A DNA stretch of 64,000 bases from Proteromonas lacertae (Eukaryota > Sar > Bigyra > Opalinata > Proteromonadidae): contig NGBS01000596.1 of assembly GCA_002245135.1 (NCBI GenBank), positions 98,934-162,933 on the forward strand. The letters run 5' to 3'. The notes below the pieces were generated by a model that did not search any database, had not been told where the DNA came from, and worked only from the letters and a program-made list of their open reading frames with translations. A program made the position numbers and the translations under genes. This document shows positions 1-47,850 of the stretch, piece after piece (the first letter of the stretch is position 1; each line of letters starts with the position of its first letter).

Positions 1-3000
1 TGTTTTATAAACTGGACAACTATATTGACCAACAGGAGTTTGATAATTAACAACTGATAAGAAATGAATAAATGGAGCAGTACAATACATTTCACCTGGA
101 TTACTATCTGCTAATATTTGATTGGCTTTATCCCATCTTACACCATCACAGAATAAACCATAAATATAAACACCATCATTTGGACCTTGAGTTATTTCTT
201 TTACATCTTCATAAGGTAATATTGAGAAACTAAAGTTCAATGTATCAATTGGAATTGCATATTTTCTAGCATGACTTTGTAATGCACCAGTTAAGAAACC
301 TTGTGGGAAATAAAAACCACTTAACCAGAATGCATCTGGTTTACCATTCTTTAACCAATTTCTTAATTGTTCAACTCTTAATCCTAAATCAGTAACCCAT
401 GATGCTAATGGTTTTAAAGATGGATAAGCTGCATTTTCCCATACATCAGGTACTTTATTATTATTGACGGCAGTATACATTCTATCTAATACATCATCCA
501 TTAGTTCTTCACCTCTTATTGCCTTTTGAATTCTACTTAATGTATTTCTTATCACATTTAATAAATTATTAAATTTATCAATTTCGTGACTTAATAATGT
601 TGCTAATGAGTCCATTACACCATTTACTTCTATAAATGTCTTTGAACCAGCTTCTTCCATTAACATATTATTTGGAATCTTTGTTTCAATTTCTTGAGCT
701 AATTCTAATACGATTTCATCAGTTGATTTACCTGATGCATTTGCACTATCTCTTGGTTGAACAGGATAAACATGTATCTAACAGTTTACGACTTTCTTCT
801 ACTTGATATGCAACATTAGCATTATTATGCATACCAAATATCTCAGGATTATCATTCAATGGTAAACTCTTCACATATTTTATATATTCCATTAAACTAC
901 CAACTGGCATACTGTAATAAATACCACTTGGACTAAATTTATAATTATCTTTTAACACATCAGGTGTTATATATACATTCAATATACACATTAAACATCT
1001 TCGATCTAAATCATCAGTTACTCTTCCACCATAGTTAATTTGGACCACAAACATAAGTTAAAGCTTCCCATGGTACTTTCTCATGTTCATCAATAAACAT
1101 CTTTAATACTTGAACAGATGTTTCTAAATCACTATCATTGAATTCATAACGAATATTAAAACCTAATGGACCAAATTTACGTCTTTCTTGTATTACAGCA
1201 TGGAAGAATGATAAACCAAATACAATCTTTTTCCAACTGAATAAATCTCGACATTTCTCAAAATCAGTCCAATTCTCTAAGTTTTGCATTGATCTTAATA
1301 AATTAGCTTTTATACCTTTTGGTGGTTCATTTGTTAATTTCACACCATTCTGTAATATAGGAACAGGGAAATAATTAGTTGGCATTGATGTAAGGAATAA
1401 TCTAAAATCAGGATGAATCTTTGGTTGATTTTCTGCTCTTACACTAAATCCATCAACTATCTTTTCTAATGCTCCCATCCAGGATTTGGCTAAATGACAA
1501 TTCTGTAACATAACCCAATCACCTGTTTTACAAGCTTTCTCTATTGCTGCTGCTGCTCTTTTACCTTGTCCTTGTCCTAAAGCAATTACTGTTAATCTTT
1601 CAGTGTAATTCTTTTGTTTTGCAAAGTTCAATAACATTCCAGTTGGATCAGCACCTGTTGATAATACGAAAATCACTGGTGTTTTATAATCTGTGTCATT
1701 ATACACATCAACCATAGCTGTTGGTGGATATTCTACAAATTCATTACCTAAATAATCTTTAACAAATCCCATCAAACCAAATATCAACTTATCTTCACTC
1801 AATAGTTTCAACATCATTACTTTACGAATCTTTTGAATCTTTTCATTCCATTCATCACCACCAGGTAATGCTTCTCTATATGGTTCTTTACTCTCAGCCC
1901 ATTTCTTCCATTCTTCTAAATTATCTGTAATATGTTGACCTAAACCACTTCAAATCCAACATCTGTTCAGCGGCACTGATTGTATTCCATGCATTTGGTA
2001 TTATGAACTTTGGATCTGGATTTGGTAATGGATTCACTATCATACCAGCACCTTTTAACAATACTTTCCATTCATTATCAGATACTACACCACTATGTCT
2101 TAAGATTTGAACACATAATAAAACTGAGAATAATAACTTATCTTTTTCAAATAAACCTCTACAAATGTTGCTATAAATAACACTTGTCATATATTTCATT
2201 AGGTTATTTCAATCTTGTTTCTAAATCATCAGATTTTTCGGCATTTCTTAAGCACATATCGAATAATCGAATGAAGTAGGATAATGAGTATTGATACATT
2301 GGATCTACATTACTAAGATCAGCAATTACAAAGTAAATTATTGAACCTCTTTCAGCTACACTTTCGTATTGATTTCTAATTATATTGATTTCTTCAGCTG
2401 TCTTTTCACTCTCAGCTAATCTTTCTTTAATCACTGCGGAAATTACTTTGGAATCTTGTAATATTTGAATCAATTCTTCATCATCCAATATATTTCCACT
2501 ACTTTCAGATATTTGTTTCAAAATCTTATCTTCGATTTGTTTCAACTGTTTTTTATCATTAGACATACTCACTACCAAGTTATTCTTCTTTTCTTCTACA
2601 TCTGGTCTTTCGGCAGCAATCACATTACCTTTCAATTGATCTCCTAAACCTTCAAATGTCACAGTAAAGTTAATAATTGTCACTTTAATACAGATTTCAG
2701 GTAAATAATGTGGATTTGGTAATTTGGTTGTTAAATAGAATTTGAATGCTTCATCATAATCAACATCACTATCTCCTAAATGGATTAATGTTCTACCAGC
2801 ATTTTGGAATATTGATTTCTGTAAAACTGGATCTAAAGCTGGATCTAAAAATTCACCAATATCTTCTATCAATAATGGTCTACCAATACGAATACAATTT
2901 TCTAAACTTCTCAACATATTCGCATTATCCATACGAATTACTTCCAAATGACTCTTAGCTTCCATCTGTTTTATCCATTTCTTGGCTTGTTCTTGTGGAT

Positions 3001-6000
3001 CAATCATTAATGGCCATCTTTTACCTCTTGTAGCTAAAACAGCATTATCTGTTGATACTGTATCTGTTGGTAAACCATTAATGTTCCATTCTCTTAATAC
3101 AATTGGATCACCTAAAGTACCAAATAAAGAGAATTTATCACTAGAAGGAACTTCTTTTTCTTTGATTCTACCAAACCATTCTTCAATCATACTTTCTCTG
3201 TATGGACCAGTAAAAGCACCATAATAAGATATACAAGCGGCAGATATAAATACATCACCAACTAATGTTAATAACTGTTCATCGTAGGTTTTTACACTCT
3301 CTTTCCAACGTACTTGTTCATCAGCTAAACCAGTTGTTAATTTCTGAGCTCTTCCTAAACGATCAGCTGTTAACTTTTGATCAGCTTTTAATTGGTTTAA
3401 TTCTTCCATTGTTCGATTTAATAAATCTGTCTTTTCTTGTACAGCATCTTTGACTTCTTGTAATTGAGATAATTTCTTATCTAATTCACCTTTTGCTAAG
3501 GCATATTTTGCATCCATCTCAGCTAATATCTTTCTCTTTGGTTCTACTACTTTTGCTACTTCACTGTAATTATACATAGCATGAATCCACATACAAATAC
3601 TTGTAGCTGCTACAGATACACGTTGTACATTTTCTACTCTCATTTCATCTTTATTTACATAACCAACAATCTTCTTTATAATCTGTGGAGATATCTTATC
3701 TTTATCATAATTCTTTAATAAATTCATAAAGTCACTTCTACCTAAAATCTTCTTAGATGTATCCCAATCTGGTTTTTCACCTAATAATATACACACAGCT
3801 TCCATAACAGTCTGTACTGCAGGTGGTGGTTTAGTAAATGATTTGACTTCTGTAATATCTTTCTTATCCAATTTATCTAAAGCTTCTAATGCTGAATTCA
3901 AGGCTGGCATAGCAACATCTAAATCAGCTTGAGCATCAGCTCTTAATGCATTCACTTCATTAGCTTGTTTCTCTACAATTGCAGCTTCTTGTGTAACTTT
4001 AGCTTCTAATGCATCTGCATCAGCTTTTTCTTCAGATACTTTTTCTACTAATACTTCTGTTTCTTCACTCTTCTTGGTTAATACTGGTTCTAATTTAGTT
4101 AATTCTTCTTGTAAACTTGCTACAACAGAGTTTGTTTCTTCTAATTTACCTACACCAGTTGCTAATTTATTCTTAGATGCATTAATTTCATCTCTTCTTT
4201 CTTGTAACATAGAAATATATGAATTAATCAAATCTAAATAACTCTTTGGTGTTGTATATACTTTTCTTCTCAATTCATTAAAGAATTTAGTAGCATAAAC
4301 TTCTACATCTAAATGAATCTGAGCACATTCATTGGCTAATATTTCTCTAATATTATCACCACCTAAATTCACTTCAGTTAAGAATCTATTAGCTACAGAA
4401 ATCAAAGCATCATAAGGCCAAGGCATAAACCAATCAATTGTACAGCAGTTAATCAATGAAGGGAATTGTCTACATCTTACACGAAGTGAATCACCAACTG
4501 GAGACATACACAACACAATATGTAAATTATCTCTAACACGTTGTACAAAGGTTTGATAACAAATATCTCTTGATTCTGGTAAACCCATTTTACGAACAAC
4601 TGGACGAATATCTTCAATTAGTTTGTTCTTTTCATCATTGGCGTAAAGATTTGGAACTTCACCTGTATTTAATACATTATTCACATCTTCTAAGAATTGT
4701 TCTTTCACAATATGATTATCAGTAAATAAAAACACTATTTGATTACCTTCAATACCAGCAACTTGCATTAGTTTCTTAATATCATCGTGGAATTCATTAA
4801 TACCATAACCTCTTGTTAATTCAATCTGGAAACACTTTATACTTGCCATATAACATGCCATTCTTGTTAATGATTGTTTACCACTACCACCAACACCTAC
4901 TAACATTGCATTACCTCTTGGTTGTCTTAATATTCTAGCAATACGTGATACATGCTCTGTGGCATTTCTGAAGAAGACTAACTTCATTTTGTTAGTGAAA
5001 TCATTGTTGTAATCTTCTAACATATCATCTAATACTTTAACAGTCTTTTTATAATCTCTGCTTACTTCATAAATACTAATATTATCAATTCTTGGCTTGA
5101 TCCAATCAACAAACATTATTGAATCTTTACCTATAAATTGTTCTACTTCAAATCCATCACTAGATATATGGAATTCACTTGTAATAACTCTAACCAAATT
5201 CTCAGCAAACCAATTCTTATCTTCATCATTAATCAATCTATCACAGAATATTCTAAGACATTCATGAGCCCATAATTGAATCATTACATTTGGTAAACTA
5301 ACTTCTCTTGGTCTTACCATCAAACAACCTTGAATAACTTTAGAAACATCACGAAGGTTGAATGTATAATGTGATTTAGCTGGAGTTGGTTTTAAATTAG
5401 CTTTTACATTACAATATACTTCAATTGTACCTCTTAACATAGCTCTTGATAGTCTTTGAATATCTTTTGAAAATCCTTCTAAGAATCCATTCAATATACT
5501 TCCAAATATCTTCTCCAATACTTCATCACCAGCTGCAGGAACACTCATCATATGACAATGACGTGTAAATCTTTGAGTCACTTTGTTTCTACCTCCACCA
5601 GGTGGTGCAGCAGCTACTAATAGGGTTGTATCCATTATATCCTTCCAGAATAACTTATCTCTATCATAAAAACCATTGAAATCTTCAAATTGTCTCAATA
5701 ATTCAATTGGTGGTTGAGCTCCATATTGTTCTACAGCAGGCATATTCACATCATCAACAAATATAATCACTTTCTTACCAGCTGGACCTCCTAATAGATT
5801 CTTTCTCTTCTTTTCTAATTTATCTTCAATACTTGCTTGTGTAGCTAATGAACTAGTTTGAGCTGAGAAGTTCAACATTATATTCAAAGTTCCTTCGCCA
5901 CCATCTTCTTCTGAAGCTCCCATATGGTTTAATAATGATTGAATAATCACAGTTTTACCTGTACCAGTAACACCAGTTAAAAATGCACTTCTATGAGCAT

Positions 6001-9000
6001 GCATATCAGTTCTTAATATCTTTTCATATCTTACAGTATCTACAGTTGGTACAATAATACTGAAATAAGGTGCATTCATATCATAAACGAATTTTGGTAC
6101 AATTTCACTCCATGAGACAAATTCTCGTTTATTTTCATCATAATATACATCATAAGCACCTCTTGGACCAAACATTATATCTTTAAACTTATGTTGAATA
6201 TGATCATCAAATGGTAAGATATCTTCATCTCTTAAGGATATACCAACTGACCAAATCAAACTATAAGCGAAGTAATTCTGTAAATGTTCGATGTCTATAA
6301 TCTACATCTAATTCATGTTATCTTAATTTTACATTCTTTCAATAATTGAGTGAATAAAATACATAAACTAGCAATAAGATTTATATCCATAGTCATAATA
6401 GGTTCTTGACATTTCTTTCTTTGGAATTCAATTACTTCATCAATATTATTATCAAATAAACTCTGTATAAATTCATGTGTTTCTTCATCAAATTCAGGGA
6501 ATGTACTTGCTAACCATGTTGTCACATATGGTCTCCATCCTAATGTAGTTTCTGGTACAAATACAACACCTAATCTTGGACACAGTAGCAGGTGAAGCTT
6601 CTTCTAAATCACCTACTTCAAATAACATTCTCATTTGATTTCTTAATTTGATTCTTTGTCCATTTGCCAAACATAAGGTTTGATTATCATCTAAGACAGT
6701 ATTCATATTTTCAATCCACAATGCATCAATTGGACCATCAAATACAGTCCATCTTCTATCTTCATCTTCAAAGGTTGTTGCATATCTAATAATTGAAGAT
6801 GCTAAACCATCTCTCCATTCTTGTGTTAATTCATTAAATTCACCATATAATTCACCCATTGTAATTGCTTTTGGATTAATTACTGTATATGTAACATGTT
6901 GGAATGTTTCATTTTTACTTTCTTTATCTCTTAAAGTTCCCATTGACTTTGCTAAGATTCTATAACTTGTGGTTTTACCTCCACCACTTGGACCTACTAA
7001 TACAACTCCAAATCTGACATTAAATGTTTCATACAATTGAATTGTCTTTGTTAAAAATTCATCTTTTGGTTGTAATCCAGCTTTAGTTATTTCATCAATC
7101 AATGTTTCTTGTAACTCACCAGTATCATTTACAGGAACTACAACATTAGGGAATAAATCATTAACAATAGCATGGAATAATGGTAAATCATCAGCTAAGA
7201 ACTTAGGTACATTTGAATCTCTCATTGCTCTAATCAACACAACATCTTCACTTAATGTTGGATTACTACGTTTTAATGAACCAGCCATGACTAATACAGA
7301 CTTTACAGCTCTTAAACCATAATCGTAGTGATGTTGTTGAGATAATTGTTCACTAGATAATTTGTATAAACGAACCATCTTTCTAGAAAGATTCTTTGAA
7401 TCATCAAAACCTTCAGCGAATAACATAATTTCAGCAATTAATGCATAATCAGGAACCATCATAGATACAGGTCTGAAGAAGATCTTTAAATTATCAGGTA
7501 ATTCAGTACGACCAGCATAACCAGGATTCATAGTAATAATAACAATATGTGGATAGATTGGAATTAAAGTACCTTCAAATACAATCTTTTCATCTGTTCC
7601 TAATAAACCTTGACGTAATGTCAATAACTGTTGTGCAACCACAGATAATACTTCAATATCAATTCTATTAAATTCATCTAGACAAGTCCAACAACCACAT
7701 TGAGCTAAGCCACTAAATAATTTACCCAACATCTTATAATCAATTTGATCAGAACAGTTAAATACCACACAAAGAATGCCCAAAGCTTTAGCTAAATCTT
7801 TAGAACTTTCAGTCTTACCAGTACCAGCTGGACCAGCAGGAGCAGCACCTAAACTCAATCGAATAGCTCCTGTTATAGTCATCCAACATCTATCAGTTAA
7901 TGGAGTAATAACCAAACGACTAGTACATCCTTGATATTCATAACCATAGATTAATTCAGTACTGGATTGTCTAACTACACATTCTTCTCGATCTTTATCC
8001 CAGTAATATCTTAATTGCATTTGCCATGAAAAACTATTGATATTATCTACTCTTTTTAAACATAATGATTCTATAATATCTCTTGCATGTACATCTGTTG
8101 TTACTAAAGCGACAATAATTTTTCTTTGATTGGATGTTAATTGTCCTCTAACTAAAGCAGTCATTTGACTTAATTGCACTTTATTTTGATCATACCATGT
8201 TCTTAAAGCTTGAACTGGATTGTCTGAAGTTAATGCTTTCTCTGTATTTCTTGTCCACATGATTTGTGCAGCTGTAGCAACAACTTGTCCAAAATGATCC
8301 ATCACCCATTGTGGTCTTTTTTCTTTCTCATAATCTACTACACCTTCATAAATTAATCTTTTTATTGTTTTCTTCATATCATTTTGTACAGCTGTTAACC
8401 ATTCTTCAACTTGTCCTCTTGCTTTTAGATTCTTTCCTAATGGTACTTTTTCACCTTCTCCTGAAATCATTGCAAATATATCAATACTACTAGCTTCAGC
8501 ACCAAAATCTAACTTCATAATTTGATCAAAGCATTTACGTAAATGAGGTTGTACAGCTTGTACATTACGAGTTTGTACCAATATTTCCAATAATTCATCA
8601 TTGGATAAGAAATAGAATCTTGGGAATGCTTGACGTTTGGTTTCTAAATAATCTTCTAAAGATTTCTGGATTTTATCCAATACTTCATTATTCTTTATTA
8701 AAGTCTCTTTCAATCCTTTCAATGTACCAGCTGTAACTGCATTTGGATTAGCATTTACTCTTCTCATTATATCTTTCCAATTTCTATCAATATTTTCAAA
8801 TAACTTTGTTTCTTGTGGTAATTGTCTTTGAATATCACCAGCAGAGAAAATAGTTTCCAAATACATCCATTGTTTCTGACAGTTAAACCATTCATCCATT
8901 GTTTCTTGTAATAACATTAATTTCTTCTGCCAATATTCTACTTCATCTCTTATTGGACTACAATATCTACTACCCATAATTGTATTTAACGTAACTAATG

Positions 9001-12000
9001 AATCATCTAATGCTGCAATAATATCATCAGGAGCACCTAAAATAAACACATCCTTTTGCTCTTTATAAGGTAATACTTCAAATTCTAAGTCCTTCCATAC
9101 TGATTTAACTTTAACTTGTAATAGATCTAATAAAGCAGCTTCTTGTACAGCATTATTGGCGATTCTATTGATTTCTGGTTGATGAATAATAACATTCAAT
9201 TGAATTAATTCACCAAGTGAATAAGATTTTCCTTCTTCAAATGTATGTCCAATAATTTCTTGGATTTCCTGTAAATGTCTTTGTTGTAAATGTGGATTTC
9301 TTAAATCCAATATAACTGGTAATAAAGTCTTGAAATCTTCAACCATTTGTTTGAACTTTGGCACAACTCTTGAACCTGGCAAACCTCTTGCACAAATTGC
9401 GACAGCTTTATTGTATTGTTGTACATATTTATTCAATTCATCAGTGTTGATCTTATCTAATGGAGTATTTTTCCATTTTTCAGTTAATTCTCCCCATTCT
9501 TTCAATCCTTTCCATAATTGCATCTTACACTTCAAATCCATTGCTACTTCATCCAATACTTCATATTGTTGTACTTCTTGATTCAATAATATCTGATAAG
9601 ATTCATATTTCTGACTTTGTTCAGTTAATTTCTGAACTTCTTTCTCTTGTTTCTCTAAGAATTCTATTACATCATCTATTGGTGCATCTGGATTACCGAT
9701 CATTGCATATTCTAATTGTTCTCTCACTGTAATTACATTTCTCTTCAATACTGGAATCTCTTTAGCAATCTTTGCAGCAAATACTTTCTTATCTTGTTCT
9801 AAGTTACCTTCACAATATCTTAAACCTTCTTCAATTGTATTCATTAAATCAGTTAAGGAGATATTATTAGCATTTTGGGTTTCTGATAATTCCCATTCAT
9901 TATTCTCCATTACTTCACATAAATCAAAGATTCTTTCATATTTTGTTTTAGCTAATGGCATAGCTTCAGCACATTCATTTAAAAACTTCACTTTTTCAAC
10001 AAATTCTTCAACTGATGATGGTGTGGAAGATACCTTTTGATTTCTCATCTTTAATTCAGCTAATAATTCAGTAGTAAACTCAGCAATTAATCCAGGAAGC
10101 ATTTCATGCATTGCAGATATACAACTCATTGGTGTTGGTTTAATATTAGCTTTAGTTTCAATACTGTCAACATATAACACCATAATATCAGCACTTGATG
10201 GTATATCTTCTAACTCTTTATATTGTTTGTAATATTTCTCTATTGTCTTTCTCCAAACATCAGCTGTAGCATCGTGGAATAATTCTTGTACATTTCTTTC
10301 TGTATTATTATTTTCTAAGTATATATCTCTATATGGTTCAAAACACTTACAATATTCAGTCACTTCATCAAATGAATGATTTAAACCATTTCTTATCTTC
10401 TCTACAAATTCTGTATATTGATCCATCTTCATAAACACATTTCCTAGTATATTTTCTTCACTTAAGTCCATATCAGCATCTTCTTCAGTAACAGCCATTG
10501 TATAAGGCTTCAAATCTTCGTGTGTTAATAACATCTCATTATGATTGATAATATCAACACCATTACTAATTAATCTATCAAATCTATCCCATGTATCTTT
10601 GTAATTAGGATATACTGATATAGTACCATCTGTATCACTTACACTTACGACTGTACTGATTAATGGATGATATTCATCTGGATTAGATGTTGTATTACTA
10701 CCTTCTTCTATCACTTCTTCAGTTCTAATCTTATTAGGTGGTAAATTAGGTGGTTCAATGGATTGATATAATTCGTCTAATGACTCTATACATATTTCAA
10801 TAAGTGTATGAGCAATAACAAAATCAGTTAATCGAATAAATCGAGTTAATCTTCTACATTCAGATCTTAAAGCTGCCTTCTTTGTAAATGACATTTTCTG
10901 ATCTGCTGAAATATTATTGGCTACTAAAAATGCATCTAATACTTTATCACATGATGTTCTTAATAATAATCTTGTCTTTACATTGAATTGCTCTAAGTAA
11001 TTAATAGCATATGCTTTTCTTTTACCTTGCTCTTTTGTAAATTCTTCTAAATCTAATGTCTTTGAATATCCTAAACTGAATAATTTACATTCAGTGTGAG
11101 CTTCAACACATAATAATCTTATCTTAAACATACATTCTCTTAAGATTGGATTTAGTATGAAATAATTCTTATCTATTGCTTCACTAGCTTGAGCTATCTT
11201 TTTGTAGTGTAAATTCTTTTTCCACCATGTATAACTCTTCCATATTGGATACTTTTCAAAGAAGGGGATTTCTTTAATTGTATTGAAAATAGTATATTCT
11301 CTCTCAAATTGTTCTAAACTAGTAAACTCACATTCATTCTCATAGAAATGAGTAATACCGTGTTTAGAAAGTGTGTAATAATCATTAATAATAGATGATT
11401 GCTTTGCAAATGTATTAGTAGTTGTTAATGATGAAGTTGATTGACTTCCTGTCATTGATTTTCTTCCATTTGTACTTGCCATTGATTTTCTACCAGTTTT
11501 TGAATTATTATTATTATTGTTATTGTTATTATTATTTGTATTGTTATTGTCGTTTTGTATTTCACTGTGTGGTACAACCATCATATCATAATAACCATAT
11601 AAATACTTGTTTTTGGATGGTCTTTTGTTTTTAGGTAATAAATAGAGGAAATTACCTTTACTAAAGTCATCTAAGGTTGCTTCATCAAGATTTAAGGATT
11701 CAATGAATTTACCATAATGAGGTTTCTTATGGAAAGTAAATACATCATCATCTTCTTCCATTTTGTTTTGATTTTGGTTAGCTGCTGTTTCATTAAACTG
11801 TACAACATCCTCTAAGGGTAAGGTTGATGTTGATGATATTGTTGTCAAACCAGCAGCTTGAGGTAAGGTGGGAAAACTACTATCTGCTTGTAATGTTTTC
11901 TTTTTATTGATATTTCTCAATGGTGACGTTTCTGTATATACCTTCTTTAACGGAGGCTATTTAGAATATATATATAACGAAATTATACATGAGTAGTGGT

Positions 12001-13893: not shown

Positions 13894-13939
<46 letters not shown>

Positions 13940-17445: not shown

Positions 17446-18233
17446 ATGGTCAATTCAATCAACAAAAAGAGAAAGTTTTGCACTGATGGTGTATTCTATG
17501 CTGAACTTAACGAAGTATAATATCAAAGTCACTTATAACTCTTTTCTTTACTCCAATTCACATTTATAATCGATATATTTATTTTAAATAGTTCTTATTA
17601 AGAGAATTAGGTCCAGATGGTTATGCTGGTGTTGAAGTTCGTAGAACTCCAATGAAGACTGAAGTTGTTATTAGTGCAACTCAACCAGCTAAAATCATGG
17701 GAGAAAAAAGTCAAAGACTCCGTGAATTAACCTCCATCATCCAAAAACGTTTCAATTTCGCTCCAGAAAGTGTTGAATTATTTATTGAACGTGTTAACTA
17801 CCGTGGATTATGTGCTGATGTACAAGCTGAATCTATTCACTATAAATTAATGGCTGGTTTAGCAGTAAGAAGAGCTTGTTATGGTGTAATTAGATACATT
17901 ATGGATGCTGGTGCTAAGGGTTGTGAAGTTATAATCTCTGGTAAATTACGTGCCCAAAGAGCTAAAGCTATGAAATTCAGAGAAGGTTATATGGTTAAAT
18001 CAGGTTATTCTTGTGTAGAATTTGTAGATGTAGCCATCAGACATGCTAAGATGAGACAAGGAGTATTAGGAATTAAAGTTAAAATCATGAAGCCATACGA
18101 TCCTCATGGAAAATTAGGACCAAAGAAACAATTAGCTGATGTAGTGACAATCTTAGATCCAAAAGAAGATGGTTTACCAAGCCAAGAACAAGAAAGAAGA
18201 AGATACCCAAGAAGAGATGAAGTAAGTGCTTAA
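17446..18233 (+). CDS. RPS3: 40S ribosomal protein S3 (uS3)
   Basis: Small-subunit ribosomal protein lining the mRNA entry channel. The first exon encodes 23 residues ([20 protein letters not shown]); a 77-nt intron (17515-17591), the longest clear intron here, leads to [20 protein letters not shown] and a KH domain with the signature [19 protein letters not shown]. The C-terminal S3 domain ([40 protein letters not shown]) is complete. About 235 residues, normal for the family. A longer intron in a ribosomal protein gene is a pattern known from yeasts. Confidence 0.97.
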
Positions 18234-24809: not shown

Positions 24810-25979
24810 TTAATACTTTGTATGAGATGGCTTCCTTGTACCCCAACGATAACTATCATGATAAGCAGGCATTTCTAATCCTAAATCTTGAGCTACATGT
24901 CTTGGGAAGAAAGCATCTCTTAACACTCCTCTTCCGATTAACACTAAATCAGCTTCATCATTCACTATTAAATCATTCGCAATTTTACCATCACATATTC
25001 CACCAACTGCTGCACTTGGAATTCCCATCTTATGAATAGCTTTAGCATAAGGTAATTGATGATCCCAATTTGATGGAATTTTTTGATCTGGCACTAAAGC
25101 AGCACTACTTGCATTTATTAAATCAACTTCATATTTTTCATGTAATTCTTTTGATAACTTCAATGTATCATCTAATGTTATTCCACCTTCTTTATAATCG
25201 GTACAACTTAATCGAACAAATAAAGGCATTTCTTTTGGAATTACTTTTCTCACTTCTACACAAATATCTTTTAAAAACTTCGCTGTATCAACACCATATT
25301 CATCTTTACGATGATTACTTAATGGAGATAAAAATTCATGAATTAAATATCCATGAGCACCATGAATTTCTATAAAATCATATCCACTTTTTACAGATCT
25401 TTCAGCTGTTTCTTTAAACTGTTTTATTAGAACTTTTATCTCTTCAACTGTTAATTCATGGGGTACAGGCCAATTATCATACGCAATTGCACTTGGAGCG
25501 TCAGTAACCCATCCTCCTTCTTCATTTGATGGAACAATGGATCGATTTGATTTATCACTACCAGGAGGGAATTCTGAGCCTTTTCGCCCTGCATGAGCGA
25601 TTTGTATACCGATCTTACATCCTTCTTTATGAACAAAATCCACTATTCTCTTATATTCAGGAATAAATGAATCATCCCACAAACCAAGATCTCTATAATA
25701 ATAATTTAAATTGATATACTTAAAACTAATTCTACCTTTTGGACAAACAGCTGTAGCTTCTTGAATTATACATCCATAACCTGCTAGAGCGTAAGATCCT
25801 ATTCAAATAAATGTTTATCACATACCATAACGCACTAAATGGAAATCAGTTGGATGTCCATCTTTTGCTTCAAACTATTTAACTAAATCTTACAAAATAC
25901 CAAGCACATTGGTGGAATACCCAATCTGTTAGGGAAAGTTAAACCTCTTCAACTTTAATGGAGTGAATAAATTAGACAT
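24810..25979 (-). CDS. NADH:flavin oxidoreductase / Old Yellow Enzyme family
   Basis: FMN-dependent TIM-barrel ene-reductase. Spliced sequence: MSNLFTPLKLKR, then (after a +1 break near 25943) LTFPNRLGIPPMC, FEAKDGHPTDFHLVRYGSYA, GYGCIIQEATAVCPKGRIS, then one long exon with IQIAHAGRKG, the catalytic/FMN segment DFIEIHGAHGYLIHEFLSP, NHRKDEYG, FVRLSCTDY and IGRGVLRDAFFP. HGAHGYL and the NxRxDxYG motif are diagnostic of the YqjM-like subclass. Three mini-introns cut the 5' third. About 350 residues, normal length. Intact apart from the frame break. Natural substrate unknown. Confidence 0.9.
25938..25948 (-). other. +1 frame break in the oxidoreductase
   Basis: Coding sense TTG AAG AGG T TTA ACT TTC CCT AAC AGA. 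Skipping one T restores PLKLKR-LTFPNRLGIPPMC, contiguous in this family. The zero frame meets TAA after three more codons. Confidence 0.8.
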
Positions 25980-28438: not shown

Positions 28439-30708
28439 CAAACAATGAAAATACAAGATTAGTTCAAGTTAAGGAATATTTGATGGCTTTAACAGAAGGA
28501 AGACCGCCAACAAAGAACATACAAGATGTAAATGAGTATTTTTAATATTTAATGGTCTGCATAGTTTGGTTTATAATCTAGTAATGAACAACTGTGGAGT
28601 GGAATTATATGTCACTGTAGAAACAATTTTGTTGAATTACACAAAGAAGCTACAAAAGGAGGTAAAGAAATTGCAAGAAGATGACCTTCTACATGGATTG
28701 GGACAGATGTGGAGGAATGTAAGTGCTTTAGAGAAAAAGATTAGAGATTCTTTGTGGTATTTGGTATATTTTACTCTCTCACTATCATCATAGAACGATC
28801 ACTTAGAAACTCTAGACCGAAAAGTAACTAGTGGAATAGATGAGGACGAAAATCAAGAAGATAAAAAGTCCGGCCGTAAATCCACCAAAATATTAATCCT
28901 TGGTAGTTTTTCCAAAGAAATATTAGAAAAGAAAAACTTAATAGAAAGAATGATCACAGCATTACTAATAGAATACCAAAGACATAGAGAAAAGCAGAAT
29001 ATTGATGAATCGACGCTCCACAGCTTAGGTAAGATGTTGGTAGAGTTAACAGAAGTCGAAGGAAATGTATTATATGAAAAATATTTCCAAGAAAGGTTTT
29101 TGAATAACACAACCGAGTTTTACTCAACTTATGCTAATAAGATCTTAGCTAAACAGGATATCAATTTGTTCAATTATTGTGAATTAGTAGAAGCACAATT
29201 GAATCATGAAAAGAACCAATATTTCTATTTAAAGAGTGAAACTCGAAACAAAGTTAATCAGATTGTAGAAATTCAACTTATTTCACATCATTATAAAGAT
29301 CTATTAGATAGAAATCCTGGTGGTTTTAGCTCCATTGTTGAATCTAAAGATAGTAAAGATATTCAACTTCGAAAAGTGTATGATGTATTCCACAATATAA
29401 TTGATGCTAAGAAAGATTTATGTGATCATTATTATCATTATGTTGAAACTGAATCTAGTGAATTGATTGGTAATGAAAAGGAGTGGGAAAAACCAGTAGT
29501 TTGGGCACAGAATTACCTACAATTATTTGGTGATAACAGTGAAACAGGTTCGTTTTTCATTCAGATGGGACAAAGATTTTGAAAGTGCAAGAATCAGTGC
29601 CTTCCGTGCTTCTTTAAAAGGTAAAACTGCTCCTTGTACTGCATTAGCATTGAATTTAGATAGTCGATTAAGAGAAAAGGCAGGAACACTATCAACAGAT
29701 CAACAGAAAGTATTAATAGAAACAACACTAGAAGTATTTGAATTATTAGATGATAAAGATGTGTTTAAGAATGAATATGAAAAATGTTTGAAGAAGAGAT
29801 TATTAGATAACAAAGTAATGAGTGAAGATTTTGAAAGTAGAATATTAACTGGTTTAACTGACAAAGCTGGTAAATCATTTACTGAAACAAGTTATCAGAT
29901 TCAACAAGAGTATAAGAATGAACATGAGAATAGTAAATACAAATATGCTATCTCTGGTTGTTCACTTGATTTGAATCCAACTATATTGACTGAAGGAACT
30001 TGGAAATTTGAAACAAAACCAGCTATTGGTACAGCTCCACCTTATTTCGCTAATATTTATAAACTATATGAAACAAATTATATCAATAAGAATGGTAATA
30101 AGAGAATTAGACCGATTTATACTGAAGGAAGTGTAAAAGCAATTATTACTTATCCTAATGGTAAGAAGTATGATGTTACATTTACAACACCACAAGCATT
30201 TATTGTCGAAATGATTAGAAATGGAACAAATACAAGAGAGACTATAATGAATAATTTAAAAGTAGAATCTTCCAAATCAAAGAGTGAGTTCTTAAGTCAA
30301 GTTCAATCCTTTTTATCCTGTAAAAAGAAAAGTGATCCAACCTTCTTATTGGAAGACAGTTCAGAAAGTGATAAGAATAAAAGAAAGATTTCATTTAATA
30401 TGAACTATGTAAATCCAAGAAACAAGTTCTCTATTCCAGTTCCAACATTAAAACATAAAGTTGCACAAACTGTAAGTGATGATTTGAATCAACAGAGATG
30501 GCATCAAATGGATGCTGCTATAGTGAGAGTGATGAAAATTAGAGGTCGTTTACAATTGAATCAATTAGAATCAAATGTAGTTGAGTTATTGAAAAGATTC
30601 TTTAAACCTACTCCTAATGATATTAAGAAGAGAATTGATGATTTGATTGAGAGAGAGTATCTAACAAGAGATGAACATGATAAATCTATTTTCCATTATG
30701 TAGCTTAA
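28439..30708 (+). CDS. Cullin, scaffold of a RING ubiquitin ligase
   Basis: Holds substrate adaptors at its N-terminus and RBX1 at its C-terminus. Exons: MSSSNNENTRLVQVKEYLMA..., intron ~28538-28566, NLVMNNCGVELYVTVETIL, intron ~28763-28792, then the long helical repeats. The cullin-homology region is clear (DVFKNEYEKCLKKRLLDNKV, LTGLTDKAGKSFTETSYQI), and the C-terminal winged helix has the NEDD8 acceptor context AAIVRVMKIRGRLQLNQL and ends IDDLIEREYLTRDE...FHYVA. About 735 residues, normal for CUL1-4. A +1 break near 29547 joins the N-terminal repeats to SFRWDKDFESARISAFRA. Subfamily not assigned. Confidence 0.92.
29541..29560 (+). other. +1 frame break in the cullin
   Basis: Reading GAA ACA G GTT CGT TTT TCA restores the cullin pattern S-F-x-x-D-K-D-F (FSFRWDKDFESARISAF). 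The zero frame ends at TGA after GQRF. No GT-AG pair here gives the right phase. Confidence 0.78.
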
Positions 30709-30805: not shown

Positions 30806-33800
30806 CTATTTAACATTATAAAAATGTTCTGATAATTCTTTCTTTTCTTCTTCTGTAATTCCATCAATAAATATATAATTAATTGATGAATAAGTTTCAA
30901 AGAATGATTTTAATTCCGATTTATTGAAATTGTCTTTTATGGTAATTGCTAATACATCTAGTTTATAAAAAATATCTTCATTTTCTCTCATCATTCTTAA
31001 TTCTCTCTCATTCAATTCATAACCTTCTATGTTTATCTTTTTTAATTGTTGATAATCTTTTAATCTTTCTATTAACATGTTTAATCCTTTTTCACTCATT
31101 CCAACATCTATTCAAATATATATATAAACCATAAAAATACTAGAGATAATTAATGAATTATCTAAAATAAATGTGTCTAAATTTTCACATATTATTTCTA
31201 TTCCTTCATCTCCAATTTCATTATTATATATCGAAATATATTGTGCATGTTCTGGTAAAGAATCTATTAGTTCTTTCAATCCTTTATAGCTTATCTTGTT
31301 ATTGAATAAATCAAGTCTTTCATAATAAATCTGTTTAATCAAACGAATGTGAGAATCATTAATATTTAAATCTATTTTATTGGAAATTAATACTTTTATA
31401 CTTGAAAAATCATATTTTCTATACTCATGTCTAGTTGCTTTTATACAATAATTCAAGTAACATTCTAACTCTTCATTTGTCCATAATGAACATTTCATTT
31501 CAATAAATGGATAATTTCCTTCTTCTTCTAATGATTTAGAATAAACTGATTTTATTGCTTTTATTCCAATATGATTTCCTCCTAAGAATATTCTCAGATA
31601 ATTATCAAAATGATCATCTAAACTCATTGGTTTAACTTGATTTATTAATAGTAACACACTTTCATCATCTATTGAGGTATTAGATAAATTTAATTCACCA
31701 AAATTCCTGAATAATTCTAAATTGCCCAGTAATGATTTAAATCCATCATTACCTATTGGATTATCTATTTATAAAATTAAAAAATTATATTTATACTATG
31801 TATGTATATATCTCTAACATTTTTGATGTCTTTCATAGAGTTCATCATATATTCTACTCCATCTGAATCAATATTATTGCCATTTAAATATATTATTCTA
31901 ATCCAACTTTTTGTTTTCTTTACACCATCTAATATATACTTCAATCCAGTTGAAGATAATCCCATATCTATTACATATCAAACAATATTTCAAATACTAG
32001 AACAATTTATTATACTAACACAATCTTTTAATTTACATAAATGTGGAGATAATATCTTCATTCCTTCATCTCCTATTTCATTTCCATATAACTTAACCAT
32101 TAGTTTTGGAAAATTATTTATACTATAAATCAATACTTCTATACTTCGGTATGTTAATTTATTATCTAAATAATAGAAAAATATCAAATCATACTACTCA
32201 GATTTAACTCTCCTATTCTCTGTAATTCATCAGATCTCAAGGCAAGGAATTGTTTCAATATATCATCATCAATACCTGAATTACTCAGATCTAATATACT
32301 AAATAAAACTCCTCCAATGATTGATTCAACCATCTTCGGAATTGTTTTATCAATCAACAGCTCTTTACATCCATTTATACGAAAAAGCGTTTCAGATGCC
32401 GGATATACAGAAAATATTTCTTTTAGTCCTTTTAAATGTATTTGTGGGTTGAACATAATTACAAGATAGCTAATAGTATATTTATATTTATGTAATTCTT
32501 GTGACAATAATATCATCGACTCATCATTCAAATTCATTTGCAAAAGATCCAAATCACGGATGTCATTAATTAATAAATGTAAATATGGTAGTAATAATTT
32601 GAATCCTTTTGGACCAATTGGATTTGCTATTTCAAAAATATAAATAATATGCTTATACACCATAGTATTAAACTTTTCAATTTCATGTATGGAATGGTTT
32701 TAACAAATGTTTCCATAAAGTAATGAGTAAGATGGCATTCTGATAAATCTAATACTTCGAGATTTGAGAATTGGATAAAATATGTTCCAAACAATGAATG
32801 ATAATGTAGTTGAATGTTAAACCAATCAATGTCTATATAAACAATAAATATTATTATTTATCAATATACCAAACTTAAGTTTCTTTGGATTGATTAGTTT
32901 CAATATTTTGAATAAATAATACATTCCTTCTTCACATAAACAGCAACAATTTGATTCAATCTTAATGATTTCTTTATCTGGATAGCATCTGCCAATGTTA
33001 CATATTATTTTATCTAAATGACATTCTTCTTCTTTACATTTGTGATGAATTTGAAATCTTAGTTTTTCAATTTTTAAAACATATTCTTTATATAATTTCA
33101 TCATCAAGAGTATTGACAATATTCTTGTATTGGATTGCTTATTGTATAATTCTACCAAATCGTCTCCAATTTCTATTCAATAATAGTTTTTAAGAATGTA
33201 AAAAATATATATATTATACCTTTCAATTTCTCACTTTCGAGATAATGTTCCAAAGGATATATTATTGGAAATGTAGAAAAAATATTGTTACTATAATTAT
33301 ATAACATTTCTTTTCTTTGATCAGACATTATTATACTGTTTTCTTCATCTCTAAATATTTCACTCATTTCGTTCATTTCTTTTCTTAATTCTTTTAAACT
33401 CAATCTATCTTCATTCTTCACACATAAAATTCTTTCCATTATTTCTTTAATCATATCATCTTTTATTAACTCTCTATTATATTCACATTTCATAATATTG
33501 CTAAGAGTTTTAATTGTATTATTATCTTCATTAAATGGTAATTTCTTGTTTATTATCTCATATAATATACATCCAATTGACCAATTCACACTTTTCTCAT
33601 TACATTCCAATCCATTCAACTCTTCTGGAGATTTAAAACATATGTCATACATCATCATTTCTTGACCTTTTCTTACTTCATTCAAACATAAATCACATAA
33701 CTTTATATCATTATTATCTTCATATACTACATTACTGCTCTTCAAATTACCAACCACTAAACCATATTCACTCAATATTGCCAATATTTTACAAATAGAA

Positions 33801-34188
33801 CATATCGCACTACAAATATCATCATTTGAAAAGGATTTACTTTGAATTATCTCTTCCAAGTCTTTGAAATACTGTTTTCTTTCTATTATCATATATTCAC
33901 CATTTTTATCCAACTGAAATGCTTTATAAGGATATATGAATGAGAAACAACAGTCTGACAGAAATGAGTTTGTTTCAAGGAATTTCAATATTCTCTTTTC
34001 TATAATCCCATTTACATATAAGATTTTAAGCATTTTAATTTTCTTCTTTTTTTGTATTTTCAAGTCTATTTCGCTATTACCCTTTTCTACTCTTTCTTTT
34101 ACCTATAAAACATAAAATCACTAAAAAATACTTGAGTTTTAGAAGATAATAATGAGTGTAACACATTATCTACAAAAGAATTCAGCAT
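30806..34188 (-). CDS. Pseudokinase-LRR protein, copy 2
   Basis: Paralogue of the gene at 18504-21860. Begins MLNSFVDNVLHSLLSSKTQ (34188), intron, VKERVEKGNSEIDLKIQ, then a kinase-like domain with VGNLKSSNVVYEDNN for the catalytic loop (Asp to Asn), LCDL where DFG belongs, SPEELNGLECNEKSVNWSIG and NEDRLSLKELRKEM. The Cys/His patch is HHKCKEEECHLDK...CCCLCEEG. RNI-type leucine-rich repeats follow over numerous mini-introns (LDLFNNKISYKGLKEL, LYGNEIGDEGMKIL) and the protein ends EHFYNVK-TAG. Exon order and intron positions mirror copy 1. The upstream motif GTTTCAAAATAT-AGAGTCGTT (34199-34219) is shared with copy 1. No catalytic activity expected; role unknown. Confidence 0.8.
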
Positions 34189-37917: not shown

Positions 37918-40132
37918 TTAAAAATCAGGTAGAAGATTAGCGAATTGATCTGGTTGTTTTGGTGGTTGTGGTGGTGGTTGCATACCCATTCCTTGATTCA
38001 TTCCCATTCCTGTATTCATTCCATATCCCATACCTCCTTGTGGTGGTTGTTGCATTCCATAACCTCCAGCCATTCCTCCTTGTGGTGGCATACCATATCC
38101 TCCTTGTGGTGGCATTCCCATTCCTGGATTCATACCATAACCTCCTCCTGGCATACCTCCTGGTTGCATTCTCATTCCTCCTTGTGGTGGCATTCCATAA
38201 CCGCCTTGTCCTGGAGGTGGCATACCCATATTAGGATTCATTCCATATCCACCTTGCATTCCTCCAGCAGGTGGCATATTATAACCTCCTACATTCATAC
38301 CATATCCTCCACCTTGCATACCAGGATTATAGGATGGAATTGCATTCAAATCAATACCTGCACTAGAACCTCTACTTCTTCCTCTTGGATTAGCTGGTTT
38401 TACATTATCAAAATAACCAAATGCATCATCACCTCCACTTTGATTCATCACATTATGTTGTGGTTGTGATGGAGCTGTATTCATTGTCATAGAGGGCTGT
38501 CCACCAAAATCTATATTACCAAATAAATCATCACCACCACCAGCAGCTGCAGATGGAACATTGGTTGGAGGAATTGACTGAAAATCAAAATTATCAACAA
38601 CAGATTTATTTACAACTTCAGTGGTTAAACCATCAAATAAAGCACCTTCATCCACTGCAGGTGCAGGTGGTGCTTCTGGTTCTGATGGCATTATATTAAA
38701 CAAATCATCACCTCCTCCACCAGCCATCAAGTCTTCCTCTGGTGGTATTTCTTCTGCTGGTAATTCTTGTTGTTGTGGTTGTGGTTGTGGTTGAACTCTT
38801 CTTGGTGGAGGTGGTGCATCTGGTTCTTCTTCTTCCTCTGGCTCATCTTCACCTCCTCTTTCTATCAAGGTAATTACTGAATCTGCTTTTTTACATACTG
38901 CTTTATTACCTTTAATACCTAATTCAGCTATTTCTTCTTGGTTTTCTTTGAAATATTCTAAATAATCTTCACAACCTTCTTGTTTACACAACGCTTCTAC
39001 TACACATAATGCTTTTAATTGTACTTGATAACTATCTTCACTTAATTTAGCTAATAACAATGGAGCAATTAATGTCTGCTGGAATATTTCTACAATTTCT
39101 TACAAATATTTCTAATTTATCAGCTGGTGGAACTGGCTTCATTCCTCCAGGAGCACATAACTCATTCACTAAACCTCTCTCATATGTACCATCTGTATTA
39201 GCTTTACCTGCATTAGCTTGATTTCGTTGTGCTATTGTAAATCCACCTGTTGGAGCTTTATAACCACTAGCTGGTTGTTGTTGTTGTTGTTGTCCATTTA
39301 CTGCACCTCTTGGACCTACTGGTTTTGGTATGTAATTTGTATTAGATGTTGATGTACTTGTAGCAGTAGTATTAACTGGTCCTCTTGGTTGTGCAACACC
39401 TCTTGGTGCGAAATTATTCAAAGTTGGTCTACCCAAATTTTGAGCTTTATCTTGCCAATTATTTGCAGGTTGTTTTTGTACTGCTTCATTTCCCATGCCA
39501 GCCATTGCCTTTGGTGCCACTGCTGCTGGTGCTGCTGGTGCTGCTGGTTTATTAAGACCTATATGAGCTCCTCTTGCCATTGGTGCAGTTGCTTGACCTG
39601 GTCTACTAATTGTATTGAATAAACCATTTTGGGGCTTTCTACTTCCACCATTTACTCTGGAAGCTACTTGTTCTATTGTAGTATGTGCTTGATCGTGTAA
39701 GGCTTTGTAAGGTTCCATTCCTCTTAATGGATCTGGAGCACCTGTGAATGCAGCTGCTGCTTTTAATTCATTCATGTGTTTCATCATCTCTACGGAGAAT
39801 ATTGGCTTTCCTGATGTAGATACGTACTATTCATAAGATATATATATATAACTTTGATTTTTATCATACTTCAATAATTCTCATACACTTTAATTTAATT
39901 ACTGGATTGTCTTTAGCTAACCTCTGAATTAATAAATCTACGAGACTCTTACATCTTGCCTCACTCTCGTCACAAGCAAGTATAGCAATTAAGAAAACTG
40001 TTCTAATTATAGTTTTAAAATGATATATTTTATTTCATCAAGTTGTGGACCACCAACTGGTTGGTTAGTAGTTGATGTGACTTTATTAACAAGCAATCTA
40101 TCTTGAACTACAGACTTAGCACCGCTTAACAT
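37918..40132 (-). CDS. TEPSIN: Tepsin-like AP-4 accessory protein (ENTH/VHS-type)
   Basis: Coat-associated ENTH/VHS protein. Spliced N-terminus: MLSGAKSVVQDRLLVNKVTS, then PQLDEIKFACDESEARCKSL (across an AT-AC intron) and LKCMRIIEYVSTSGKPIFSV. The string AAAAFTGAPDPLRGMEPYKA parallels human tepsin EAAAFAGPPDPLHGNSLYQK. A second helical domain (KLEIFVRNCRNIPADI then LLLAKLSEDSYQVQLKALCV) matches tepsin's VHS-like domain in spacing. ALFDGL resembles the LFxG(M/L) AP-4-binding peptide; DDLF and DDLFG peptides also occur. The C-terminal ~130 residues are Gly/Met/Pro repeats (GGYGMNPGMGMPPQGG-like). A +1 break lies near 39071. A 5' UTR intron probably ends just before the ATG. Confidence 0.78.
37985..38330 (-). 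repeat. Gly-Met-Pro coding repeats in tepsin tail
   Basis: Imperfect repeats of about 24-36 bp encode GYGMPPQGGM and GYGMNPGMGM units. The degenerate array explains spurious open frames on the plus strand here. Confidence 0.8.
39064..39080 (-). other. +1 frame break in tepsin
   Basis: Coding sense CCA GCA GAC ATT A ATT GCT CCA TTG. Dropping one base gives FVRNCRNIPADI then IAPLLLAKLSEDSY, aligning without gap to the VHS-like domain of human tepsin (FIKAC...LQLLTCHL). A GT...CAG alternative of 25 nt would delete that aligned segment. Confidence 0.72.
39980..40026 (-). other. U12-type AT-AC intron in the tepsin gene
   Basis: Coding sense: 47 nt starting ATATCATTTT, with TTTTCTTAAT close to the end and finishing GCTATAC. 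Splicing joins LDEIK to FACDESEARCKSLV with the spacing of human tepsin. No GT-AG intron solves this junction. The 5' splice site is identical over 10 nt to that of the USP AT-AC intron. Confidence 0.8.
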
Positions 40133-41397: not shown

Positions 41398-41482
41398 AAG
41401 ATGTTTTAATTAAATGTTTATGACTTTTTTTTATAAATTTTATATTAATTTTATTAATCTATGTGTAACTATTTATATTAAA

Positions 41483-41988
41483 TTAATTCAATAATATTTT
41501 TACTAAATCTTCAAATTCTATCCTTCCATTTCCATCACAATCACCAATTCTAAGAAATTTCTTCATTTCTTCTTCTGATAATTGTTCTCCATACGTTGAT
41601 AAAAGATGCATCACTTCATCTGTAGTTAAATACCCTTTATTATCTGTATCTAATTCTTTTAAAGCTGTTATAAGTGTTTCAGATGTATCTTTTCCTTGTT
41701 CATTTTCATACTCTTTCATTGTTTCTAAAAATACATCAAACGAACATCCATTAGAATTATCTAAAACAAAAATTGTAATTTAAATACTTTCATCTAATTT
41801 TGCTATTATTTCACGAACTTCAGCATTTGATGGATTTAATTCTACACTTCTCATAACCTATTTATCTTGAATAAAAGATATACTTTGCCAATATCCTCTA
41901 GTTCAAGTATTGATGTTTTTTTATTAGCGTACATTTCATAATATCTTCGAATTACATACAAATGTTGATCATTTATCTCTTCTGCCAT
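41483..41988 (-). CDS. Calmodulin-like / myosin light chain-like EF-hand protein
   Basis: Three exons. MAEEINDQHLYVIRRYYEMY, intron ~41855-41880, VMRSVELNPSNAEVREIIAK, intron ~41764-41790, then SFDVFLETMKEYENEQGKD and two EF hands: DTDNKGYLTTDE and DCDGNGRIEFED. The first two EF hands are degenerate (no acidic loop), as in myosin essential light chains, axonemal dynein light chains and troponin C relatives. About 150 residues. It shares a short divergent promoter with the Sfi1-like gene. Exact partner unknown. Confidence 0.82.
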
Positions 41989-44927: not shown

Positions 44928-45088
44928 TTTAAATAATTTATTCATCATTATTTGCTATTTTATCTTTGTATTCATGATTTGAGAAAGAATTTGACAAAAT
45001 GCGAAAATATACTCAAATCGTGGAATTATTTTATCAGTTATTTTATTTTATTCTTTATATCTTTATAACTACACATTTTAGAGTTTAA

Positions 45089-47850
45089 ATGGATAGTAGA
45101 TTCGGTCGAACTTCTCGTACAGTTTCTAGTATACAAAATTTCTTTATGTTTTGTAGATAATACTGTAATTAACGTAAAGAGTAAGTCAGGGCTAGGTATG
45201 CAAAGTATAAGAGCTTCTAATAACCAAACACCAGAAGTGACTATTCCTGGCACACCAATCACTTTGGTTGATAGACCTCCAGTACTGCTTATCAATGCTC
45301 CAAAACCACCTCCTGTTACTCCTCAAATAGAATACAAAGATGATAAAGGCACAGGAACAGATGACTTCCATGAACAGCCAAAAGAAAAATCTCACTGTGG
45401 TTTATACAGTGCATACTGTTTTATCGTTTTTATATACACAGTTTTATGTTTTGTAATATACACATTCATCCTCTATGGAATAGGAACTGCATTTATGAAA
45501 TCACATTATCATATATCAATTGATGGTAAAACCCTATCACTCAATTCACTAGATGTATTAAGATATCCAGGTGTATATAATGTATTTACAACTCCTCAAA
45601 CAACATCAATGAAACAACGAGAACTTAAAGAAAATGACATTATTGATTTAGATAATATAAAATACAGTGTAACTAAAGTAAAAGCACTAACACCAAACAA
45701 CAGAAGAACAGCTGTAATTGATGGACAAAATGATTTATATCTAAGAAGTAAAGGATTAGAAACAACAGATGTAAGTATTGACGGAAGAACAAAAATGTTA
45801 GGTGATGTAATGATTGGAGATTTTAACCATACAAATAATCTAAAAATCAATGGAACAATTGATGTACAATCAGTGAAAGTGAATAAAGTGTTTGATTTAT
45901 CAGATGCAATATTAAAATACAACGCTCCAAATCCAAACAATGTAAATCAAACATTTCCAAACATTACTATTGGACAATTAGATGCTAAAGTAATAAATGT
46001 TCAAACAACACTATGTAATATCAGTATAAATAATTTTACAAATATAAATGATATATTATTTAAAAAACCAAATATTATTACTGTAAGAAGTGGTAATTTA
46101 GTATTAAAAGGAGATAAAGAAGGTAATGGAAGAATAACAATGTTGACTGATGCTGATGCGCCAACAGTGAATGCTGAATATATGAATATTGGATTAAAAG
46201 ATAGTGAAAAGAAAATAAATATAAGAGGAGATGATAATTCTATTAAGAATGTAATTAATTTAGAATCTGATTCTATTACCTCTAAATCGATAAAAGTGAG
46301 TGAAATTAATGCAATTCTAGATACAATTAAAATGAAGAATGTAGTTGATATGAATGGGAATTTATTAAAAACAACTAAAATACAAAATACTGATACAATA
46401 CAGACATTGAATATAAAACCATTGGATGATAAAAACTATTTATCTATAAATGGAATCAATGTATTAGATAACTATGAAATGACTAATTTATTGAAGTTAA
46501 GATCAGCTCAAGTATTTACCAATGAGATTCAAGTTTCCAATGCAGGATCAATATCTATTAAATCTGATATAAATATGAATGATTATTCTATTTCAAATAT
46601 AAAGACAGTATCAACTACTAATTTAGATGTAATTCAATTATCTGTTAATTCAATCACATCTAAAGATGCAGCTAATCCAATAAGTGTAGAAAGTGATATG
46701 TTATGTAATAAAATAATAAAAATAAATGAAATTGATCCAACGAATGTAGGTAAGAAAATACTAGTAAATGGTGATATAAGTATGGAGAGTAAATCAATTA
46801 TCAATATAATAGATACTCAAACAGACAAATTAACTGTTAAAGAAATAATCAGTAAAAATAGTGATGGTAGTCCAATCAATGTTAATTCTGCTGTGAATTT
46901 TGGTAATACCAATCACTACAGGAATTATTAATGTTGGAACATTACAATATTCTGCACTTGGTGGTGAAATCAGTGTTAATTCTGATTTGAATTTAGTTGA
47001 TAAGAAAATCACTTCTGGTACACTAACTGTTAATTATATTGTTCCAAAGGATTTATTCTCTCTTAGCATTGGAGTAGACTCTGGAAAAACTACATTGAAT
47101 GGAATGGTGGAATATAAAGGAGGAATAACAGGTTCTTTAAATCTCAATAGTAATAAAATAGTTGGGATTGGTAGTCTACAAGGAACTGGTGAAGATTCTA
47201 TTTTATTTGAAAGTCATATAAAAATGTTAAATAAAAACATTAATATGGATGGTAATAGTATAACTAATATCGGTACACTTACAGCACAACAAGCTGGTAA
47301 AATAACTGTCAATTCTGATATTTTAATGCCAAATAATGAACTGACTGTACAATCCATACAAAGTAATAATGCTAATGGATTGACATTTAAAGGGAATATA
47401 AAATTTGGTATTAATAAAATCACAATTAAAGATGATGGTACAATTACTGGATTACAGAAAATAAATTCAGCTATAGGAGATTCTGTTGATATAAAAGGCA
47501 AAGTTACTATAGGATCTATCACTATTAGTGATTCACAAATTGATATGGGAGGTTCTGATATTACAAAAATAAAATCAATTTCAGGACAACCAAGTAATGC
47601 AATAGGAATTAAAAGTAATATAGATATGAGTGGTAAATCAATTACTAAGGTAAAAGGAATTAATGAAAACAGTGGTGATTCTTTGGACATATTTGGAAGT
47701 GTAAATATAAAGAATGAACTAATATTACCTAATGTGGTAGGTGCTTCTCCTGGCAGTAATTGTTCTCCTAATGGATCTATTACAAGTGATGGAACAAATT
47801 TGTATTTCTGTTCTGCATCAAAATGGAATAAAATCATAATCACTTATTAG
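45089..47850 (+). CDS. Type II membrane protein with large beta-solenoid-like ectodomain
   Basis: Two exons (28-nt intron after MDSRFGRTSRTVS). A Pro-rich cytosolic stretch (TPEVTIPGTPITLVDRPP) precedes one transmembrane helix (YCFIVFIYTVLCFVIYTFIL). Some 750 extracellular residues follow, dominated by 20-30-residue repeats of the kind I-x-V-x-S-D-I-N-M-x-x-x-x-I-x-N-I (SIKSDINMNDYSISNIKTVS, GISVNSDLNL-like, NIDMSGKSITKVKGI), typical of right-handed beta-helices. Several N-x-S/T sites occur. The end, GSNCSPNGSITSDGTNLYFC, is a Cys-bridged cap like those of fibre or adhesin proteins. A +1 break or a 19-nt intron near 46900-46918 is required. Adhesin or surface-coat role is inferred; no orthologue recognised. 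Confidence 0.75.
46896..46920 (+). other. +1 frame break (or 19-nt intron) in the beta-solenoid gene
   Basis: The zero frame ends VNFGNTNHYRNY-TAA; the next frame resumes ITTGIINVGTLQYS. Either ACC A ATC skips one base or GTAATACCAATCACTACAG is removed as a 19-nt intron. The repeat is too loose to decide, though 19 nt would be the shortest intron in the window. Confidence 0.6.

Follow-up and report, generated by a model that had tools for sequence, protein, structure and literature searches.

The window analysed here is a stretch of 64,000 nucleotides from the protist Proteromonas lacertae (C1012:98934-162933, where C1012 is contig NGBS01000596.1 of assembly GCA_002245135.1, a genome of 50.2 Mb in 1181 contigs), and its eukaryotic origin is shown by dyneins and introns. 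Several conserved genes in it are interrupted at points where one extra nucleotide has to be skipped for the family sequence to continue, here called +1 breaks. Judged from sequence, these breaks are probably surplus single bases in the assembly consensus and not a new mode of reading genes. The surplus would mostly come from short runs that have been written one base too long where the consensus is poor; the cell's own genes would be in frame, and reads would be expected to lack the extra base at the junctions. The initial annotation had listed nine well-supported +1 sites and one probable site, and had named surplus assembly bases as the main rival of recoding. Eight of the nine and the probable one stand, the site in the centrin gene being two introns, and the rival fits better than recoding does, although sign and coding-strand biases are atypical for assembly errors.

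Five of the breaks lie in a DNAH6-type axonemal dynein heavy chain (1..11956, minus strand, open at the left window edge), identified by PDB and protein-database matches and by tblastn. With six relatives in tblastn the gene is split into frames whose family coordinates are nearly contiguous, with one surplus base at each of the five joins. Three junctions (at about 766, 1047 and 1949) were placed with 14 aligned relatives. The first, TTA TCC-T-GTT CAA (757..769; all sites of this gene are on the minus strand, and the surplus base is set between hyphens), falls between Ser and Val of L-S-V-Q-P-R, where relatives have mostly L-S-[IL]-Q-P-R. At the second, GGT-C-CAA ATT AAC TAT (1029..1046), relatives read G-[HQES]-x-x-Y-G-G and the paralogue GQINYGG; the 14 aligned sequences are mostly G-[HQ]-I-N-Y with P in none, and since the family has mostly G-[HQ]-I-N-Y-G-G at 1047 the surplus base is put before CAA. 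The third is approximately TTG-A-AGT GGT TTA (1939..1953), in a family context of mostly x-G-L-x-x-x-I; the alignment is loose and the base at 1949 is placed roughly between TTG and AGT. The remaining two are TTG-A-AAT AAC CTA (2197..2215; paralogue R-L-N-N, alternatively written AAA-T-AAC) and GTG TCC-A-AGA TTA (6569..6583), where the paralogue has SPATVSRLGVV uninterrupted. A further discontinuity at 6289..6333, in which 26 bases are left non-coding by the coding model described below, could be two +1 shifts, one -1 shift or one atypical 38-nt GTAA...ATAG intron, and was kept out of the count of 28 sites used below. A near-identical second copy of the dynein stretch 700-2300 was sought in the genome and not found, and no close dynein relative was found, the best identity being 61% among the matches listed (120 of 2002; 7989 candidates scored).

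The coding model charges 10 nats for a frame shift; values in nats are margins over the best alternative with this penalty included, and those of clustered sites are joint. It was run over C1012, C1155:160001-260000, C1140:160101-169000 and 8.3 kb of C1066, with introns forced to the genome's own type and a minimum intron of 20 nt. In C1012 and C1155:160-260 kb it called 110 introns, 81 of them of 60 nt or less (range 24-54 nt), with a GTAT start in 77/81 and T at -3 in 79/81. This tight short-intron consensus, GTAT...ATAG, is seen within the window at 41761-41883 and 25693-25900.

Four further +1 sites were identified in other genes of the window. The cullin-3 site, GAA ACA-G-GTT CGT (29541..29552, plus strand), is set by family spacing: frame 1 matches CUL3 to residue 348 and frame 2 from residue 359, with 31 nt for the 10 residues between. 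No near-identical second copy of the cullin stretch was found in the genome. Another site lies near the start of an oxidoreductase (25926..25949, minus strand), which we take to be of the OYE type; AGG-T-TTA and CCC-T-AAC both fit, as read by eye against the family sequence. In the tepsin gene (about ATT-C-CAG, 39074..39088, minus strand; 12.0 nats) and the beta-solenoid gene (about ACC-A-ATC, 46902..46919, plus strand; 10.8 nats) the sites were called by the coding model only and placed by the author. The tepsin region (38001-40000) has a GC content of 39%, against 26-30% in the adjoining 2-kb windows.

Unrecognised introns or alignment slips are a very improbable explanation of the breaks as a whole, even if they do account for some. 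The later frame breaks of the oxidoreductase are ordinary introns of 26-27 nt (the 26-nt one at 25875..25900, others at 25799-25825 and 25693-25719, minus strand), and an intron is possible at 6289-6333. The centrin-like gene has no frameshift, and its supposed +1 break is rejected: introns of the genome's usual type, of 26 nt (41858..41883, minus strand) and 27 nt (41761..41787, minus strand), restore the frame. The argument that family spacing rules out introns fails at centrin and holds for most dynein sites and the cullin, where, as in a chaperonin on another contig, the surplus is one base at family spacing; the shortest intron called was 24 nt, though the model allows 20.

A second DNAH6-like dynein, on C1140 (a 571-kb contig), contains nine +1 sites and no called -1 within 12.7 kb. 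Elsewhere in the surrounding 21 kb the model called no shift, and it reads one more frame change there as a 41-nt intron. Taken jointly, the DNAH6 pair has 14 +1 sites and no -1 called (6289-6333 aside), and none of the 14 positions is common to both paralogues when compared by eye; the two that come nearest to each other, window 1949 and C1140:162804, are separated by some eight codons. With nine sites in one gene and no common signal, recoding would require nearly perfect shifting at each; 5 such shifts in a row would be needed in one DNAH6 gene and 9 in the other, with no position in common, which favours surplus bases in the assembly. Consensus errors would also explain the patchiness of the breaks (nine in one 12.7-kb gene, eight unbroken dyneins, no frame break among the 65 HSP70 rows) and the disagreement between copies. 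The eight other dyneins of the genome are single open frames of 3640-4637 aa, and such genes, open up to 4637 aa, indicate ordinary stop codons.

Across the genome, +1 sites number 26, spread over eight contigs, against two or three -1 candidates. For the homology part of this survey, match tables were scanned by eye for pairs of adjoining matches that change frame and lie a small offset apart. Dynein sites outside the window, besides those of C1140, are C1155:166541/3, C18:164561/5, two on C139 and one on C134 near 76059. Other genes are a chaperonin (C829:35284/5; 22 rows, 31/31 candidates scored), a kinesin on C5 (128 rows, 122 of 179 candidates scored) and, at C1155:240799, what is presumably a DNA polymerase epsilon. 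For C18 and C829 near-identical second copies were sought and not found. At a second place on C134, near 74715, the net offset is +2, which is two +1 shifts by the family spacing L-S-V-V-x-x-Q-x-x-x-I-Q-N-A-L or a single -1 by the coding model (favoured by 8.4 nats after penalties); this pair being disputed, the count is given as 26 and not 28. Leaving out decayed copies, intron-compatible offsets and the C134 and kinesin pairs, no clear -1 was found in the homology tables; the kinesin pairs on C992 and C864 have offsets of +11 and -10, read as a putative intron plus missing positions, and a degenerate C529 pair has an offset of -2. Of 65 HSP70 rows, for which 54 of 365 candidates were scored, none was continued by a neighbour in another frame, of either sign, and the 17 rows for class-I tRNA synthetase showed no frame break of either sign.

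The coding model called 28 +1 and 8 -1 shifts, or 14 and 3 at 8 nats or more. Two of the -1 calls are in the window part of C1012, at 117991 (1.3 nats) and 160037 (8.7 nats, no readable left flank); C1012:37127 and 64286 look plausible, and the remaining five of the eight score 1.3-5.7 nats. Left out of the 28 placed sites were the HSP70-like C1012:74158, which could not be placed, the model's weaker +1 calls on C1012 (1596, 3413, 17369, 50391, 85889, 94645 and 98186) and C1155 (23307, 33196, 47176, 49874 and 64907), one weak call in L002, and the decayed or noisy copies on C537, C138, C444, C529, C942 and C1072. The one-sided +1 sign noted in the annotation is borne out except for these few -1 candidates, and the protein-match tables scanned by eye kept the plus sign and did not bring up many -1 breaks.

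The strongest alternative is that the extra bases, often C in CC, are real in nuclear DNA and are skipped by +1 ribosomal frameshifting or removed from the mRNA. It has in its favour the sign bias of 26 to two or three, the conservation of protein on both sides of the breaks in DNA polymerase epsilon, chaperonin, kinesin and cullin, the excess of CC on the coding strand (see below), and the kind of codon that precedes the shift. The recurrence of TCC noted in the annotation is confirmed and widened: TCC is the last zero-frame codon at 5/28 sites, with TGA next in none, and NCC at 10/28 (9/26 without the C134 pair), compared with 1.0% in intact genes. Yet the same contexts are read normally elsewhere. 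Dicodons occur unshifted in intact genes for 20/21 sites and heptamers for 18/21; in 55,553 intact codons TCC is used in frame 196 times, ACC 164 and GCC 110, and there are 302 unshifted instances of TCC or ACC with A or T as the next base. A simple NCC-W decoding rule was accordingly rejected on its unshifted use in intact genes. Besides, the CC class falls in two phases (NCC-W and N-C-CAN), which leaves no codon rule, and about half of the sites are not CC. Where it could be tested, recoding shows neither a common signal nor common positions, and assembly surplus fits better; as an account of the breaks recoding is unlikely. Surplus consensus bases in short runs agree with a run of two or more bases at 20/21 junctions, though 76% of control windows have one as well.

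Further evidence comes from near-identical contigs. C537 is a 16-kb near-identical partner of part of C1140; over 3.9 kb their alignment has 8 mismatches and 28 gap columns, and two of the nine C1140 sites fall within it. In each case C537 lacks two bases relative to C1140, which leaves it one short of in-frame; the surplus is absent from it, which speaks against recoding. The two contigs differ in length by one base at 15 places (C537 shorter in 10, longer in 5), and C537 has four two-base gaps, among them those at both sites. If the truth is in frame, each contig must have a one-base error at both sites, while a true +1 needs two-base losses in C537 exactly there; the former is likelier, by a few tens in the author's estimate, which was not computed. 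The coinciding errors of C1140 and C537 suggest hard sites. Four copies of a dispersed dynein fragment (C634, C962, C970 and C972) are nearly identical. Between C962 and C972 there are 9 one-base indels but 1 substitution; 6 of the indels add a base that the remaining copies lack, among them G in CAGGTG and TAGGCA, and C in AGCCTA. C634 and C970 differ by 1 mismatch and two internal indels. One-base errors thus appear to be present in the assembly and unevenly distributed. The dispersed fragment is found on about ten contigs (C634, C962, C970, C972, C925, C754, C364 and others), and five listed copies have internal stops. Haplotype-like or redundant contig pairs, some clean and some error-rich, are C1140/C537 and C800/C1021 by alignment, and C134/C736, C520/C1012:6229, C545/C1155:137046 and others by equal scores only.

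These near-identical pairs and decayed dynein copies also lend something to the idea that the bases are real and not recoded, the broken genes being recent null alleles or pseudogenes whose product comes from other copies. However, decay would also yield -1 shifts and stops, not the one-sided pattern of the DNAH6 genes, and neither the cullin stretch nor the chaperonin site has a second near-identical copy. This explanation, too, is doubtful.

Several observations weigh against surplus consensus bases. Coding-strand CC occurs at 12/26 junctions (controls 6.1%) and GG at 3 (P = 0.0017 for C and G duplicated symmetrically); the null is that isolated C and G are doubled alike on both strands, and the test is post hoc, with junction placements of the author's own. 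With the C134 pair CC is at 14/28 (6.1% in controls) and GG at 3 (7.7%; P = 4e-4), and when tepsin, beta-solenoid and oxidoreductase are also removed from the 26, NCC, CC and GG are at 8, 10 and 2 of 23 (P = 0.0026). In a fixed 8-nt window at 16 model-placed sites, [AT]CC[AT] was found in 10/16 against 0.166 (P = 5e-5), and [AT]GG[AT] in 6/16 against 0.226. A sequencing error in double-stranded DNA should be blind to the coding strand, and plain error does not predict such an excess; the independence of strand expected of consensus errors is contradicted by CC:GG ratios of 12:3 or 14:3. A test by codon usage alone did not favour C/G duplication, which was the best placement at 2/16 sites (expectation about 0.5, against 0.11 with random insertion); codon usage locates the surplus base poorly, and the CC excess came from homology placement. 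The contigs bearing breaks include long ones (559-610 kb), and the sign bias exceeds the usual homopolymer-error pattern. As for the copies, C537 errs mainly by deletion (10/15 one-base differences), C634 and C962 are not indel-dominated (9 mismatches, 6 gap columns), and C800 and C1021 show 6 mismatches over 3.3 kb, with no indel. For the +1 and coding-strand CC biases together the biological reading is kept at a low probability. In its fullest form, a nuclear genome with ordinary stops would carry real extra bases, often a doubled coding-strand C, efficiently neutralised without a stop or a fixed slippery site; this is quite improbable. The neutralising routes may be deletion of the base from mRNA, or quadruplet or +1 reading.

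The shift site of Euplotes is AAA-TAR and that of antizyme is UCC-UGA. In Euplotes, +1 frameshifting at internal stops affects many nuclear genes, according to the portions of the reports used here (PMC10235951, PMC4759687, PMC5011710), and the present case is alike in that a protist shows +1 shifts often and across many of its nuclear genes. The claim that the shift here never sits at a stop is nearly right, and the system is not Euplotes-like: unlike the stop-codon shifts of Euplotes, a stop is in the A site at 1/28 placed sites (TGA, in the chaperonin GCC-TGA, outside the window), although the window site at 2205 can be written AAA-TAA. In Perkinsus mitochondria, as far as the excerpted account goes, shifts of +1 or +2 occur at unused codons (AGGY, TMGGY, CCCCT) at conserved gene positions (PMC9550989). 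On that partial account the likeness lies in several shifts per gene, conserved proteins and the inclusion of AGG and CCC-type sites, and the difference in nuclear genes, codons in normal use and no position common to two paralogues. The yeast +1 sites of Ty1, Ty3, EST3 and ABP140 (PMC12661321, in the part drawn upon) and the antizyme site are resembled by UCC or another NCC before the shift at 10/28 sites and by the chaperonin GCC-TGA; otherwise there is here no stop and no fixed next codon, with many shifts per gene and most heptamers also unshifted. Long-read assemblies contain gene-breaking indels, and their residual errors are mostly of homopolymer length, in the sections consulted of PMC12007338 and PMC8812927. 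Compared with those sections, scattered and locus-dependent one-base gene breaks are alike, whereas insertions in runs of 2-3 and the coding-strand C excess are not.

A recoding reading of the breaks is not supported, with contexts unshifted in intact genes and no paralogue position in common, and surplus bases in the consensus remain the preferred explanation. The window also contains a ribosomal protein S3 gene (17592-18233), with a 96% identical relative (P0121) in metagenome contigs, probably from a congener. Two similar blocks on the minus strand (18787-21771 and 30809-34102) comprise a kinase-like stretch followed by leucine-rich-repeat-like stretches, named by eye. Elsewhere in the genome, a single in-frame TAA or TAG was identified within several HSP70-family matches (C1140:136527-143222, C49, C445 and C573).

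Should the DNA itself carry the surplus bases, a nuclear genome would have a new non-triplet decoding or a base-deletion editing. If they are consensus errors, which is likelier, gene catalogues and protein predictions made from this assembly are split at the breaks. In that case the two biases, towards +1 and towards CC on the coding strand, indicate that the errors have a systematic origin, which is worth finding.

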